Below are positions 3,309 to 18,568 of a stretch of DNA of 34,322 nt, piece by piece (the first letter of the stretch is position 1; every line of letters starts with the position of its first letter). This stretch comes from an uncultured Porphyromonadaceae bacterium (GTDB lineage Bacteria; Bacteroidota; Bacteroidia; Bacteroidales; Muribaculaceae). Under the pieces are notes generated by a model. That model was not told the origin of the DNA. It saw only the letters and a program-made list of their open reading frames with translations, and did no database searches. The position numbers and the translations under genes are program-made. The stretch spans positions 1 through 34,322 of the forward strand of contig CAMWUD010000004.1 of NCBI GenBank assembly GCA_947177365.1. The letters run 5' to 3'.

Positions 3309-3944
3309 TCAGACGAGCAGGGCGGCGATTACGCAGCCAAGCCCGAGCAGGAAGCCGGCTCCTACTTGCCCGAAGGTGTGTCGGTGCAGAGCAAGCCTGC
3401 TGGAGCAGACGGCACCGCAGAGCATTATGCCTACGGTGATTACTATCATGGGCTGGAGCAGCAGGAGGTGACGGAAAGCCAGCCAGATAATCATTCCGGC
3501 CATGCCGGATACGGCGGTGGCGTGTGCGCTGATTTTCCATCTGAAAGTGACAATCAAGGCTATGCCTACGGCCAGCGCGGCACCGATAAAGAAGCGGGCT
3601 ACCCACCAGGGAGCATGTATCGAGGAGAGATACCATGCCGCCGCAAGATAGCAGAAGAAGGCAAGGCAGAATGGAACCGCGCGTTCACTGCGCCGGCTGA
3701 TGGCGTTGTCCGATACCTTGCCGAGCCGGCGCAGAGTCAGAATTGCGGCGGTAGGCAATACGGCGGTAATCAGAGCCACTACAGCCATGGTCACCAGCCG
3801 GGTGCGTTCCGGAAGGACAACCAGCGGAGTGAGCCACATCATTATGGTGTAGGCATAAGTCGGAATCAGCAAGGGAGAAAACACATCGCTGATAATCTGC
3901 GGCAGGCGCAGGGATCCGGGATTTTTGCCGATAGGATTTTCCAT
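3309..3944 (-). CDS. PAP2-like integral membrane protein with a degenerate active site
   Basis: A 211-residue membrane protein with about six hydrophobic segments. It resembles the Bacteroidetes branch of the type 2 phosphatidic acid phosphatase (PAP2) superfamily. Traces of all three phosphatase motifs can be seen: RRSERAVPF in place of KX6RP, KISAHATAVSG in place of PSGH, and SRLALHRHTFGQ in place of SRX5HX3D. The SR and the His of motif 3 are kept, but the final Asp is Gln and the motif 2 Pro-Ser-Gly-His is reduced to S-A-H. Catalysis by the classical mechanism is therefore uncertain; a lipid-phosphate phosphatase or a non-catalytic membrane role are both possible. It lies between rpoN and purE, 28 nt after rpoN. 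Confidence 0.72.
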   Translation of the reverse strand: MENPIGKNPGSLRLPQIISDVFSPLLIPTYAYTIMMWLTPLVVLPERTRLVTMAVVALITAVLPTAAILTLRRLGKVSDNAISRRSERAVPFCLAFFCYLAAAWYLSSIHAPWWVARFFIGAALAVGIALIVTFRWKISAHATAVSGMAGMIIWLAFRHLLLLQPMIVITVGIMLCGAVCSSRLALHRHTFGQVGAGFLLGLGCVIAALLV

Positions 3945-12988: not shown

Positions 12989-14968
12989 TCAGAGCGGATG
13001 GTACTGCACGAATGCCTCCATGGCTTCATATGATGCCAGACCGAGGTTTTCGTACAGGCTTGCTGTAGCGCGGTTGCGCTCTTCGGCGCGCTGCCAGAAC
13101 AGACGGTCGTCGTCGCCGAGGAAGGGTGCGTTCTCCATCTGGCTCTGGTGCTTGAGGATAGAATTGCGTTTGAAGCGCAGTTCTTCGGGCGAAATAGGCA
13201 CAGCCATTTCGATGTGGTCGATTTCCCATTCGGCCCAGGCGCCGCGGTACATCCAGATGCGGCAGTCTTTCATCCAGGGCTGTTCTTTAAGCTCGTCGAT
13301 GGCGGCGAGAACGGCGTCGGTGCAGACGCGGTGGGTGCCATGGGGGTCGGCAAGGTCGCCGGCCACGAAAATCTGGTGGGGACGAATCTCTTCGAGCAGA
13401 TTTTTCACTATGTTGATGTCGCGTTCGGAGAGTTCGCCTTTCTTTACGGTACCTGTCTCATAGAAGGGCAGGCGGAGGAAGTGTACGTTCTCCGGTTTCA
13501 CCCCGATATAGGAGCATGCTATCGATGCTTCGGCCTGGCGTATCATGGTCTTGATTTCGCGTACTTCGGGAGAGTCGATGTCGCTTACGGAGCGTTTTGC
13601 GCTTACGCCGGCTTGTACATCGTGGCTCAGGCGGAGATATTCTTCGGTGTCGAATCCGAACATTGGGGCAATCTTGTCCATCATCAAGAAGTAGCGCATC
13701 ATGTCCTCGTCGCCTACGGCTATGTTGCCGGAAGTCTCATATGCCACGTGAACGTCGTGTCCCTGGTCGACAAGCCGCTTCAGAGTGCCTCCCATGGAGA
13801 TGACATCGTCGTCGGGGTGAGGCGAGAACACAATCACGCGTTTGGGATAGGGATTGGCGCGTTCGGGGCGTGAAGTGTCGTCGGCATTCGGCTTGCCGCC
13901 CGGCCATCCGGTGATGGTGTGCTGCAGTTCGTTGAACACCTGTATGTTGACGTTGTATGCCGAACCGTAGGTAGCCACAAGTTCGCCAAGACCGTGGTCG
14001 TTATAGTCTTTGTTGGTGAGTTTGAGGATGGGTTTTCCTGTGATGCCGCACAGCCATACGATGGCTCTGCGCACCTGCTTGGGATTCCATTCGCAGCTGG
14101 TGACCATCCAGGGGTGGGAAATGCGGGTGAGGTCGTCGGCGGCGGGGAGGTCGAGAGTGATGTGGGCGTTCTGGTGGAGCTGGAGGAAGCTTGCGGGAAT
14201 CGAGTCGCTTACGGGACCTTCGATTGCTTCTTCCACGACTTTCGAGGAATTTTCGCCCCAGGCCATGCACATGATGCTGTCGGCCGAGAGCAGATTTGCC
14301 AGACCGAGGGTGATGGCGGTCGACGGACAGATGTCGCACTTGTATGCGTTCTGTATCATGTGGCGTTCTTCATCGCTGAGCAGAACCAGGCGACAGTGTG
14401 ATGTGGCGCTTGAACCGGGCTCGTTGAATGCGAGGGCGCCGCCGGGGCCGATTTCGCATATGGTCACGTCGATGCCGCCGCAATCGGCAATCTTGCGTTC
14501 GTATTCCTTGCAGTAGTCGAACATCGACTCCATGGTTACAGCCGGATTGATGGAGTGTACGTTGCTTTCGCGTATGTTCACATGGTCGAGCAGTACTTCG
14601 CGCAGACAGGCGAGAGTCGACGGGCCTTCGGGCTGGAGCGGAAAAAATTCGCTGATGTTGAATATGGTCACGCGGTCCATGGAGAGTTCGCCGCGCCGGT
14701 ACATTTCAATCAGGCGGGCATAAACGGGGTGGGTGGAACGTCCGGCGCCCAGAGCCATCACACAGCGGTTTTTCGCAGCTACACAGCGTCGGATTTCATC
14801 GGCGATGCGGCGTGCGAGCTGTTCGCTGGCGTCATCTGAGGTTTCGTAGATGGTGGTCTGGATTTTTTCTTCTCTTGTCAGGGCGGCAAGTTCGAGATCG
14901 CTTTCCGGCGCGTAGTAGCGGCGTGGAATGCGGTCGAGTTTGATTTGAGAACTGAGATTTGTTTTCAT
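12989..14968 (-). CDS. NagB-like/PIG-L (LmbE) fusion protein, annotated in relatives as glucosamine-6-phosphate deaminase
   Basis: A 659-residue fusion typical of Bacteroidetes. Residues ~30-290 are a glucosamine-6-phosphate deaminase (NagB) domain; ~378-640 are a PIG-L/LmbE zinc deacetylase domain with SPHPDDDV (382-389) and DPHGTHR (541-547) as metal-binding motifs. The deaminase catalytic positions are altered: E. coli D72 in NMDEY aligns with S106 in NISEF, and D141 and H143 in NDGHIAFNEP align with G176 and A178 in PGGALAFNEP; only the Glu of FNEP is kept. Deaminase activity is thus doubtful, while the deacetylase half looks intact, so a function on an N-acetylated amino sugar is plausible. 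The start is the ATG at 14966-14968; a longer frame upstream is not credible. Confidence 0.88.
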   Translation of the reverse strand: MKTNLSSQIKLDRIPRRYYAPESDLELAALTREEKIQTTIYETSDDASEQLARRIADEIRRCVAAKNRCVMALGAGRSTHPVYARLIEMYRRGELSMDRVTIFNISEFFPLQPEGPSTLACLREVLLDHVNIRESNVHSINPAVTMESMFDYCKEYERKIADCGGIDVTICEIGPGGALAFNEPGSSATSHCRLVLLSDEERHMIQNAYKCDICPSTAITLGLANLLSADSIMCMAWGENSSKVVEEAIEGPVSDSIPASFLQLHQNAHITLDLPAADDLTRISHPWMVTSCEWNPKQVRRAIVWLCGITGKPILKLTNKDYNDHGLGELVATYGSAYNVNIQVFNELQHTITGWPGGKPNADDTSRPERANPYPKRVIVFSPHPDDDVISMGGTLKRLVDQGHDVHVAYETSGNIAVGDEDMMRYFLMMDKIAPMFGFDTEEYLRLSHDVQAGVSAKRSVSDIDSPEVREIKTMIRQAEASIACSYIGVKPENVHFLRLPFYETGTVKKGELSERDINIVKNLLEEIRPHQIFVAGDLADPHGTHRVCTDAVLAAIDELKEQPWMKDCRIWMYRGAWAEWEIDHIEMAVPISPEELRFKRNSILKHQSQMENAPFLGDDDRLFWQRAEERNRATASLYENLGLASYEAMEAFVQYHPL

Positions 14969-15074: not shown

Positions 15075-16010
15075 TCAGTTCTTATCGAAGAAAGGCAGGT
15101 CGGCGCTTACGCTGTAAGTTTCGCTGAGACCGGTTTCTTGATTTTTCTTGGTGCATACGAAGTCAAGGGTCATGCCTGTTGTAAGGGTGTAGACGGCCTT
15201 GAAATTGCTTATCGGGAAGGCGCTGAAAGGAGTTCCGCCGATTGTCGGGATAATCGGGTCGGCCTTCTGGAGAGTGACAGTGCCGTTGTTAGAGACTGTA
15301 AACGGTATGTTCGGGAATGTCATTGTCATTTCCGGCATGTTTTGTATGAATTTGGCTCCGTTGATGGTGAGGTTACCGGTCTTGGTCTCCATGTCGAGGG
15401 TCAGCACGTAGGTGGGGTCGCTGTTTGAGAAGCTTTTGCCTTCGGAGTCAGTGGTGACGGTGGTGCCGGTGAATACTTGTCCGGGCAGACTTGACACCAC
15501 TCGGTAGTGACCGTCGATAGTGAAAAGGATAGAAATCTGCGGAGAGTAATATTTAGCCTCCGATATATTTGGAGTGAGCTTGTAGTCGTTAGTGAAGTAT
15601 CGGTCGGCCACGGTAAGCTTGAATGCCGAGAACACTGGAGCCGTAGCGAATCCTTCCACAGCTACCGGCATGTTGCTGCCTTCGAGCACACGCGAGCCAT
15701 TGTCGTCGATGGTAAACGGCACGGCGGTGAGCGTGATGGTGGGGTATTGTTTGTTGCCGGGCAGACGCAGGCCTTGGATGGTAACATCGGCGGTGCCGGC
15801 GATAAAGTCGTAGATTATATCGTAGTTGGCGCCAAGATACTCAATGGTAAGATCTTCAGCCATGTCGTTGGCATAGACGAAGGCGTTGAGTATCTGTTGC
15901 CTGTATTTCAGTTCCGGGTCGTTTTGTTTGCTGTCGCAGGAAACGATGCCAAGGCATGTCGCGATGCAGACTGCAATGGCGCAGATAGTACGGGTAAATT
16001 TCATATTCAT
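15075..16010 (-). CDS. Putative outer-membrane or surface lipoprotein, DUF4840-like
   Basis: A 311-residue lipoprotein: hydrophobic signal to residue 24 and lipobox I-V-S-C with C25 lipidated. The following residues DSKQNDPE are acidic, as seen in many Bacteroidetes surface lipoproteins. The body consists of repeated beta-rich segments; two similar halves can be sensed (FSAFKLTVAD near 130 and FSAFPISNFKAVYTL near 265; also TLTAVPFTIDDNGS and TFPNIPFTVSNNGT), which points to an internal duplication. The family assignment is tentative. The start is ATG at 16008-16010 (or the third codon, also ATG). It has its own strong promoter, so it need not depend on the TonB receptor gene upstream. Confidence 0.7.
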   Translation of the reverse strand: MNMKFTRTICAIAVCIATCLGIVSCDSKQNDPELKYRQQILNAFVYANDMAEDLTIEYLGANYDIIYDFIAGTADVTIQGLRLPGNKQYPTITLTAVPFTIDDNGSRVLEGSNMPVAVEGFATAPVFSAFKLTVADRYFTNDYKLTPNISEAKYYSPQISILFTIDGHYRVVSSLPGQVFTGTTVTTDSEGKSFSNSDPTYVLTLDMETKTGNLTINGAKFIQNMPEMTMTFPNIPFTVSNNGTVTLQKADPIIPTIGGTPFSAFPISNFKAVYTLTTGMTLDFVCTKKNQETGLSETYSVSADLPFFDKN

Positions 16011-16195: not shown

Positions 16196-18451
16196 TCAGA
16201 AGCGCACCTTTAGGGTGGCGCCGATGCTCCATGGCCGGGACTCCTGCACGAAAGCGTTGCCGATGGATACAAAATAAAAAGTCATATATCGTGTGTTGCT
16301 GATATTCTCGCCCCACAGTCGCAGACTCCAGTGTGCGGCGTTGAATGTCAGCGACGAACCGAGTACGGCGTAGAACGGCTGACGGACACTGTTGGCTTCA
16401 TTGAAATATATGTCGCCGGCGCAGCGCAGATTCATGTCGAGCTGAGGCCTTATTCCGGCTATATCGAAGTCGGGAATCCACAGCGCGTTGACGAACAGCG
16501 TGTTTTCGGGAGCATATGGCACCCGCCGTCCGCGGTAGTCGTTGATGCCGTCGAAGAAGCGCCTGAATGTGGCCTTGGTATAGCCCCAGGCGGCCTGCAG
16601 CTGAACTTGTTCGACAGGCCTGTAGCCGGCGGTCAGTTCGAGTCCGCGGCTGAGTGTGCGTCCGGCGTTGGTCATGATGCGTCCGGTGGTGGTACCGCTC
16701 GGGAATACAGTGAGCTGCTGGTCGCGGCAGTCGATTACAAAAGCTGTGGCTGACAGGTCGAGACGTCCGGAGAAGAGCGATGCCTTGATTCCGGCTTCGT
16801 AGTTCCAGCTTTTCTCGGGTAGGTATCCTACGATGTCGTCGAGCGTGTATTGCATGCCTATGCCCATGATGCCCATGATGCGCTGCTGGAGTACGTCACT
16901 GAACATCTGCGTGTTATAGCCGCCCGCCTTATAAGCCTTGGTGATGTCGGCGTAGACCGAACCCCACGGACGCCGCCAGGTGACGGTGAGTTTGGGCAGG
17001 AGCTCGTTGAATGTGCGGCCCAGACGGTCGGAGTCGTTGATGTCGACCGGTGTGGTGGAGTACAGCTCCCGTTGTCCGTCGGGCAGTATGTGCCAGGTTC
17101 TGTAGCCGGTGTTGCAATAGCTGTGATATGACAGCGAGGCTCGTTCGATGTCCCATCGCAGTCCGGCGTCGAAAGTCCAGTCGCCCAGCGTGTATGTGCT
17201 CTGGTGGTAAAGGGCGAATCCGGTGTTTCCCATTGTGAAGTCGCTTCCGAGAGTGAATCTCCGCGAGAACCATTCGATGGGGTATTCGGGGTTGACATCG
17301 TTGCGGTGTGCCTCGATGAGCTTTGAGATACCGGTGTCTTTGAATGTCACCGGGGCATGCATGTCGGTTGACCGGCTGAATACGAACACACCGCCGAGCC
17401 AGTCGTAGTCGCCTCTGGAACCTTTGGCGAACATGTCTTCGGAGAAAGTGGTCTCGTGCCGTTTCTGGCGCAGGGTGAAATAGTCGTCCGGCAGGAAATC
17501 CTGGTCGAGCCGCATGTCGTCGCTCATATATTGGAAGGAAGTGGTGGACGTGACCACCATGCGTTTGCCTGCGAACACGGCGGTGAGTCCGTCGGAGAAC
17601 AAAGTGCGCCTGTATGAGCATGTGTCGGCATAGGCAATGTCGGGCATCGTCAGGTGGCGGTATGGATAACCGTCCTGATACGAGTCGCTCAGCGATGCCG
17701 TATTGGTGAGCGACAGCCATGTGTTCGGGCGCCATGAGAGCTTCCAGCGTCCGTCGGCCTGTCGGCTGTCGCCGGTGCGCCGGTCAAGAAACACGTTGCG
17801 TCTGGCACCGTTTTCCGATGAATACTGTGCGGTGACCGATGTGGCCAGTGATTCAGAGAGCTTCCCGTACCATCCCAAGCCGCCGCGAATACTGTTGAGA
17901 CGGCCATATTCAGCCAGCGCGCGGAAACCTTCGGTCTGCCAGGGCGACAGGGTGTTGACGATAATACGTCCGCCCATGCTGTTGCGTCCGTTCAGCGTGG
18001 CTCTTGCCCCGCGCAGCACTTCGATTGACGCTATGTCAAAAATGTCGAAATCGAAAGCATCTTTGTTGAGATAGGGTACACCGTCGACCTGCAGCCCTAC
18101 GACGGGCTGGTCCATGCGCGAGCCGAGTCCGCGTACATAAATGCTTGAAGTCATGCGCGAGCCGTAGTCGGGCATATAAAAGTTCGGAGCGATGGTGCCG
18201 ACATCTTTCGCGGCCGTTATGCCGAGCCGGTTGACCATGGCCTGCGAAATGTCGGTGGCTGCCATGGCATCGGAGCGGACAGTCTGTTTGACGCCTTCCA
18301 CCTCGACCTGTCGCAGGAGCAGGTGGCCGTCGACGAGCGAATCGGCAGCAGCCTGTCCGGGTTCTCTCTCTCCCGGCTGGGCCGGAGACATGGCGGCAGA
18401 ACTTCCGGTGCAAAGAAGCACAGCGTATACTATGGTGCGTATAGTTTTCAT
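16196..18451 (-). CDS. TonB-dependent outer-membrane receptor
   Basis: A 751-residue TonB-dependent transporter. Signal peptide 1-20, a short N-terminal stretch where a TonB box may lie (RQVEVEGVKQT near 47-57), a plug domain at ~60-170 (SSIYVRGLGSR, VVGLQVDGVPYL, IASIEVLRGARATLNGRN) and a 22-strand-type barrel ending in the terminal Phe of GATLKVRF. There is no carboxypeptidase-like N-terminal domain and no SusD partner next to it, so it is not a SusC. It resembles siderophore or cobalamin-type receptors, but the substrate cannot be told. The ATG at 18449-18451 is chosen because the signal peptide begins there; it follows a -7 box by 9 nt. It is divergent from the sigma factor operon at 18569. 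Confidence 0.93.
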   Translation of the reverse strand: MKTIRTIVYAVLLCTGSSAAMSPAQPGEREPGQAAADSLVDGHLLLRQVEVEGVKQTVRSDAMAATDISQAMVNRLGITAAKDVGTIAPNFYMPDYGSRMTSSIYVRGLGSRMDQPVVGLQVDGVPYLNKDAFDFDIFDIASIEVLRGARATLNGRNSMGGRIIVNTLSPWQTEGFRALAEYGRLNSIRGGLGWYGKLSESLATSVTAQYSSENGARRNVFLDRRTGDSRQADGRWKLSWRPNTWLSLTNTASLSDSYQDGYPYRHLTMPDIAYADTCSYRRTLFSDGLTAVFAGKRMVVTSTTSFQYMSDDMRLDQDFLPDDYFTLRQKRHETTFSEDMFAKGSRGDYDWLGGVFVFSRSTDMHAPVTFKDTGISKLIEAHRNDVNPEYPIEWFSRRFTLGSDFTMGNTGFALYHQSTYTLGDWTFDAGLRWDIERASLSYHSYCNTGYRTWHILPDGQRELYSTTPVDINDSDRLGRTFNELLPKLTVTWRRPWGSVYADITKAYKAGGYNTQMFSDVLQQRIMGIMGIGMQYTLDDIVGYLPEKSWNYEAGIKASLFSGRLDLSATAFVIDCRDQQLTVFPSGTTTGRIMTNAGRTLSRGLELTAGYRPVEQVQLQAAWGYTKATFRRFFDGINDYRGRRVPYAPENTLFVNALWIPDFDIAGIRPQLDMNLRCAGDIYFNEANSVRQPFYAVLGSSLTFNAAHWSLRLWGENISNTRYMTFYFVSIGNAFVQESRPWSIGATLKVRF

Positions 18452-18460
18452 TTCAGAGTG

Positions 18461-18468
18461 CAAAGATA
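18461..18468 (-). promoter_or_regulatory. -7 box of the TonB receptor gene
   Basis: The minus strand reads TATCTTTG preceded by ACG. It lies 9 nt before the ATG. No clear TTG sits at the -33 position, where there is a T-rich tract instead. Confidence 0.5.
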
Positions 18469-18532
18469 CGTCTAATTTGGCAAAAAAAGCTAAAACTTGC
18501 CGGATAAAGGTGGCGGACTGAAAAAAAAAGCG

Positions 18533-18540
18533 TAAATTTG
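18533..18540 (+). promoter_or_regulatory. -7 box of the sigma factor operon
   Basis: TAAATTTG, 28 nt before the ATG at 18569, preceded by CTG, nine A residues and GCG. The upstream 16 nt are nearly identical to those of the rpoN promoter. The -33 element is not evident. The box is 64 bp from the divergent TonB receptor box. Confidence 0.55.
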
Positions 18541-18568
18541 AACTCCATAACACCACCCGTTACCGATT

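Follow-up and report, generated by a model that had tools for sequence, protein, structure and literature searches.

A NagB–PIG-L fusion protein of Muribaculaceae as a probable deacetylase carrying a NagB pseudoenzyme domain

The closest described counterparts of the protein analyzed here are E. coli NagB (TIGR00502), the GlcNAc-6-P deacetylase NagA (TIGR00221), and the PIG-L/LmbE deacetylases (PF02585), which include archaeal diacetylchitobiose deacetylase, BshB, and MshB. A gene called nagB has also been described in the chitin locus of F. johnsoniae, where Fjoh_4557 sits in the order SusC-SusD-gene-GH20; NagB of this ChiUL could not be expressed, its deletion had no phenotype, and three other nagB-like genes are present in the organism (PMC5127042). 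The present study analyzes a gene that joins a NagB-like and a PIG-L-like half in a single chain, found in a window (the whole stretch of DNA analyzed) of 34,322 nucleotides from a Muribaculaceae metagenome assembly that is about 82% complete (Table 1).

The window protein matches NCBIfam NF002557/PRK02122.1, “glucosamine-6-phosphate deaminase-like protein”, over its full length (residues 10-658, 911.8 bits against a cut-off of 384), with Pfam Glucosamine_iso at residues 43-266 (64.6 bits, cut-off 27) and Pfam PIG-L at residues 379-557 (75 bits, gathering score 28.2). It shares with E. coli NagB the fold, the FNEP motif, and E148, and the modeled NagB half (AlphaFold, pLDDT mostly about 85-98) has NagB structures as its top Foldseek matches and a TM-score of 0.87 to 1dea. 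In contrast, D72, D141, H143, R172, and K208 of E. coli NagB are all replaced, and the score on the nagB equivalog TIGR00502 is 148.8 bits (151.5 in the genome search), below the cut-off of 236.9. The HPDD and HxxH motifs are shared with the PIG-L/LmbE deacetylases, from which the window protein differs by its conserved linker to NagB, a C-terminal extension, and low similarity to every characterised member. The solved structures nearest to the PIG-L half by sequence are diacetylchitobiose deacetylases; the AlphaFold model of this half, built from a shallow alignment, is poor (mean pLDDT 70, pTM 0.51). NagA is the enzyme for the reaction that we propose for the fusion, but it belongs to the unrelated amidohydrolase family. 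A conserved DGH motif is common to 6-phosphogluconolactonase and NagB. The former has the same fold and was considered as an identity for the NagB half, but TIGR01198 scores 57 bits against a cut-off of 124 and the motif is lost. The bacillithiol deacetylase BshB was also rejected: its models score 31 against 195 and 27 against 182 bits, and bshC was found in 0 of 69 Muribaculaceae genomes, which excludes a bacillithiol role for Muribaculaceae. In the open-access literature searched, we came across no earlier attribution of GlcNAc-6-P deacetylase function to the PIG-L half of the fusion. The flanks of the fusion gene in the window (TonB receptor, calycin-like protein, phoH, purC, and ubiE) were uninformative on function. 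Upstream of it, at 15075-16010 (-) and 16196-18556 (-), a calycin-like protein (weak match) adjoins a TonB-dependent receptor, and such a receptor recurs near the fusion in two other loci (L002 and L023).

Table 1. Coordinates of the fusion gene, its parts, and residues of interest in the window, and of a homologue that lacks the NagB domain.
Feature	Position	Strand	Basis or remark
Fusion gene: NagB-like domain, linker, and PIG-L deacetylase, NF002557 family	12989..14968	-	Single ORF, 659 aa; profile matches and homologues
NagB-like half, residues 40-280, predicted non-catalytic	14129..14851	-	Pfam PF01182; modeled NagB fold; below nagB equivalog cut-off
Linker, residues 281-375, highly conserved	13844..14128	-	Also in the NagB-less homologue
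PIG-L/LmbE-type deacetylase half, residues 376-659	12992..13843	-	Pfam PF02585; weak sequence match to diacetylchitobiose deacetylases
Ser106, where E. coli NagB has general base D72	14651..14653	-	Alignment
Gly176-Gly177-Ala178, where E. coli NagB has D141-G142-H143	14435..14443	-	Alignment
Glu172, where E. coli NagB has G137; 39/39 Muribaculaceae, one gain on tree	14453..14455	-	Alignment and tree
Glu183, equivalent to E148 of E. coli NagB, retained	14420..14422	-	Alignment
Arg77-Ser78, equivalent to phosphate loop G43-T44 of E. coli NagB; loop partly lost	14735..14740	-	Alignment
Asn207, where E. coli NagB has R172 (lost)	14348..14350	-	Alignment
Ser241, where E. coli NagB has K208 (lost)	14246..14248	-	Alignment
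H384-P-D386-D387 motif, metal ligands and general base, intact	13808..13819	-	Alignment
H543-G-T-H546, second metal/catalytic motif, intact	13331..13342	-	Alignment
NagB-less homologue, linker and PIG-L only	L109:3892-5082	+	Bacteroidales-like promoter sequence TATCTTTGC at about 3842-3850 upstream

Fusions and standalone NagB proteins from the fetched loci were aligned to E. coli NagB (locus L072), which provides the residue numbering. A first-pass annotation of the window had claimed replacement of D72 by Ser, D141 by Gly, and H143 by Ala, and the alignment bears this out (S106, G176, and A178), with E148 kept as E183. The same annotation held that the phosphate site stays, which is not what we find: loop 41-44 reads A-G-R-S, with G42 and a Ser at T44 as its only remnants, G43, R172, and K208 are replaced by R77, N207, and S241, and these three positions vary freely across the Muribaculaceae fusions. 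Homologues with 69–93% identity to the window protein occur in 38 further loci, and among the 39 Muribaculaceae fusions H143 is kept in none, K208 in one, and D72 in two, while E148 is kept in 38. That the losses are common to 39 loci rules out chance, sequencing, or assembly error as their source. All 39 Muribaculaceae fusions keep R158 and Y121, which in E. coli NagB lie near the allosteric cleft. Every Muribaculaceae fusion, together with four close relatives, has Glu at the G137 position, which maps to a single gain on the tree. H384, D386, D387, H543, and H546 of the PIG-L half are likewise present in 39/39, consistent with the earlier view of an intact deacetylase. The fused NagB half is thus very probably not a deaminase in the window lineage, as judged from these residues, and the name “glucosamine-6-phosphate deaminase” does mislead there, as had been suspected.

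Members of NF002557 above the family cut-off were found in 122 of 297 sampled Bacteroidota genomes, and in most of these fusions the NagB half also exceeds the nagB cut-off, typically at 255-290 bits. D72, H143, E148, and K208 are kept together in 73 of 126 fusion homologues, which are all 73 of the non-eroded fusions, whereas the window protein and its Bacteroidales clade have lost deaminase residues. The first reading had missed that most of the phylum keeps these four residues. Even the non-eroded fusions have T, S, or N at D141 without exception and have lost R172 in nearly all cases, and the allosteric K160 and Y254 are replaced family-wide (by V/I and W), including in fusions with intact catalytic residues. 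A tree built from the linker and PIG-L half places two losses of H143, one in L103 and the other in a Bacteroidales clade (53 rows, support 95) to which all 39 Muribaculaceae belong. Loss within this eroded clade looks stepwise. Several Bacteroidales families have Tyr at 72 with Asn at 143, as in L065, where a “VGNIAF” variant that the earlier annotation gave for Bacteroides proves to be real (GIGRVGNIAFNEP); Muribaculaceae and their nearest relatives have Ser at 72, small residues at 143, no K208, and Glu at G137. The first state would have preceded the second, with D72 to Tyr and H143 to Asn followed by Ser at 72, a small residue at 143, loss of K208, and the change of G137 to Glu.

The two halves of the fusion have diverged at different rates. 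Divergence of the NagB half relative to that of the PIG-L half has a median of 3.0 in Muribaculaceae and 1.7 in other eroded members, against about 0.9-1.1 in the rest. Omega estimated from codon counts among three close relatives is about 0.07-0.09 for the NagB half and 0.01-0.03 for the PIG-L half, and the medians over 31 unsaturated pairs are 0.32 and 0.09. The NagB half is relaxed yet under purifying selection and therefore is still kept for something; the domain is retained in all 39 Muribaculaceae sampled, of which L029 ends at a contig end. One Bacteroidales homologue inside the eroded clade (L109, genome G463) lacks the NagB domain altogether. It starts just before the linker, is 397 aa long from its ATG, keeps the linker and PIG-L motifs, and has its own upstream sequence; G463, a single draft genome, carries a separate nagB. 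Decay of the opposite kind also occurs, in two lineages. Three proteins (L133, L134, and L135) have lost the PIG-L general base (HPAD) and keep the key residues of the NagB half, and each is a second copy, its genome having an intact fusion as well (L061, L053, and L060 in the three genomes). In L101 both the HPDD and HxxH residues are lost (RPAD with GTR) with the NagB half again keeping its key residues, and its genome (G371) has NagA, one of only three such among 30 Bacteroidales fusion genomes. With a dead or absent NagB half beside a separate nagB, and a dead PIG-L half beside an intact fusion or NagA, it seems that each half decays where another gene can do its job. The family forms a clear natural progression in which a two-step fusion leads through one-step forms, with either a dead NagB or a dead PIG-L half, to domain deletion.

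In 11 sampled Muribaculaceae loci canonical nagB lies directly upstream of and head-to-head with the fusion and is by far the commonest shared neighbor. A ROK-family sugar kinase, the fusion, and nagB follow one another on one strand in reaction order in L169, and a ROK kinase precedes the fusion in L168. Twenty other Bacteroidota fusion loci, mostly outside Bacteroidales, have recurring GH20, SusC/D, sodium symporters, anhydro-MurNAc kinase, and PfkB, none of which dominates. One locus (L149) has the order SusC-SusD-fusion-GH20 (hexosaminidase), the same as around Fjoh_4557, which by this gene order is probably a fusion of the intact type. Among 69 Muribaculaceae genomes, 36 have the fusion and canonical nagB, 2 the fusion only, 11 nagB only, and 20 neither (Fisher p 1.4e-7), so that the suggested check for a canonical nagB in fusion genomes is answered positively for 36 of 38, often as a divergent neighbor. 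Bacteroidales genomes carry a separate nagB in 14/16 cases where the NagB half is eroded or absent and in 3/14 where it is intact (p 6e-4). These counts ignore relatedness, and with two independent erosion events on the tree a tree-aware pairing cannot reach significance; the association of NagB-half erosion with a separate nagB is suggestive.

The distribution of the fusion is also partly complementary to that of NagA among related genomes. Of the 122 fusion genomes in the phylum, 98 lack nagA, against 9 of 25 genomes with standalone nagB only (p 2e-5, relatedness again ignored); among Bacteroidales fusion genomes, 27 of 30 lack it. Among nagB-positive Muribaculaceae, nagA occurs in 16/36 with the fusion and in 9/11 without it (p 0.04), and at least one of nagA and the fusion is present in 45 of the 47. 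The 20 Muribaculaceae genomes that lack both nagB and the fusion also lack nagA. Two nagB-positive Muribaculaceae (G312 and G331) have neither nagA nor the fusion, possibly because of a further GlcNAc-6-P deacetylase or assembly gaps. The window genome is one of the two with the fusion only: nagB was not detected in this assembly of about 82% completeness, and its four sampled congeners all have nagB. It does have nagA, and given this the window fusion may be redundant or may act on a related substrate; in the 16 Muribaculaceae with fusion, nagB, and nagA, too, the deacetylase may be superfluous or have another substrate.

Patterns detected are, on balance, best explained by a bifunctional ancestor, both GlcNAc-6-P deacetylase and GlcN-6-P deaminase, whose descendant in the window lineage is probably a deacetylase carrying a NagB pseudoenzyme domain. 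The ancestral fusion would have been a one-chain, two-step enzyme of amino-sugar catabolism that replaced separate NagA and NagB, its PIG-L half removing acetate from GlcNAc-6-phosphate and its NagB half converting the resulting GlcN-6-phosphate to fructose-6-phosphate and ammonia. In one Bacteroidales clade, which includes Muribaculaceae and the window, a separate canonical NagB would have come to perform the second step, and the fused half, from which the general base, the ring-opening histidine, and the phosphate ligands are gone, would now be a pseudoenzyme domain under weaker selection, retained probably to help the chain fold or assemble, with a scaffold as the simplest answer. The window protein would then be a zinc-type deacetylase that passes GlcN-6-phosphate to standalone NagB, and from its partners and distribution its substrate is most likely GlcNAc-6-P. 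Residue losses, phylogeny, rate difference, co-occurrence, and gene order are read from sequence, and from them we infer the inactivity of the NagB half and the activity and substrate of the PIG-L half. The differences of the “intact” halves from true NagB, at D141 and R172, count against a two-step origin. Further points against the overall reading are the lack of a phenotype on deletion of the F. johnsoniae ChiUL nagB, the occurrence of nagA in 16 of 36 Muribaculaceae with fusion and nagB, and the purifying selection that still acts on the NagB half. If the reading is correct, most Bacteroidota with the fusion do have a GlcNAc-6-P deacetylase, namely the PIG-L half of a protein labeled as a deaminase, and this half would fill the missing-NagA gap in the use of chitin, mucin, and cell-wall sugars. 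In Muribaculaceae and related Bacteroidales the automatic label “glucosamine-6-phosphate deaminase” is misleading, and metabolic models that rely on it would be distorted.

An alternative explanation could be that the deacetylase half acts on some other substrate, such as a precursor of bacillithiol or of the cell wall, or chitobiose, and that the link to NagB is historical. The breadth of the PIG-L family, the diacetylchitobiose deacetylases as nearest solved structures, and the presence of NagA in 16 Muribaculaceae that have both fusion and nagB are compatible with this, but bacillithiol is disfavored by the missing bshC and the low BshB scores, and the neighbors of the fusion are nagB, ROK kinase, and GH20, with fusion presence tracking nagB; on this evidence we regard another substrate as a minority possibility. 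Others concern what the NagB half does. It could bind GlcNAc-6-P or another sugar phosphate, for example in the former allosteric cleft, and so switch or feed the deacetylase, and it is true that GlcNAc-6-P is an allosteric activator of E. coli NagB (PMC4008608), that the domain persists under purifying selection in all 39 Muribaculaceae, and that R158, Y121, and the Glu at the G137 position are present in every one. Yet the phosphate-site residues G43, R172, and K208 are lost and variable, K160 and Y254 are replaced even in catalytically intact members, and the domain has about three times the divergence rate of its partner and is gone in L109, all of which makes such a sensor unlikely and does not agree with the conserved sugar-phosphate-binding module first proposed.

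Given purifying selection, R158, Y121, and the new Glu, the NagB half may still have a role in structure or in altered ligand binding. It is conceivable, but quite doubtful, that the half was repurposed, with the Glu at the G137 position forming together with E148, R158, and Y121 a new pocket that senses another metabolite and controls the deacetylase; a dead enzyme would then have given rise to a new type of amino-sugar regulator. Rewiring of the active site (e.g. E172, S106, and E183) into an enzyme that deaminates or isomerizes a different substrate appears very improbable. The single origin and fixation of the G137 change and retention of E148 in 38/39 Muribaculaceae would fit it, but E148 is lost in 4/13 other eroded members, the H143 position is filled by S, A, T, N, C, or M with no consistent replacement, and there is free variation at positions 141, 43, and 208, unlike in a re-formed active site. 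A deacetylase with a NagB pseudoenzyme domain is the reading that we prefer for the window protein.

There was also a second, distinct NagB-deacetylase fusion family in Bacteroidales, with proteins of about 780-795 aa (L105, L106, L107, and L108 from genomes G471, G428, G464, and G371). Its NagB motifs are intact (QIDEFYP and GPDGHIAFN), it has a PHHDD-type deacetylase motif, and the two members scanned score about 202 bits on NF002557, below the cut-off of 384.
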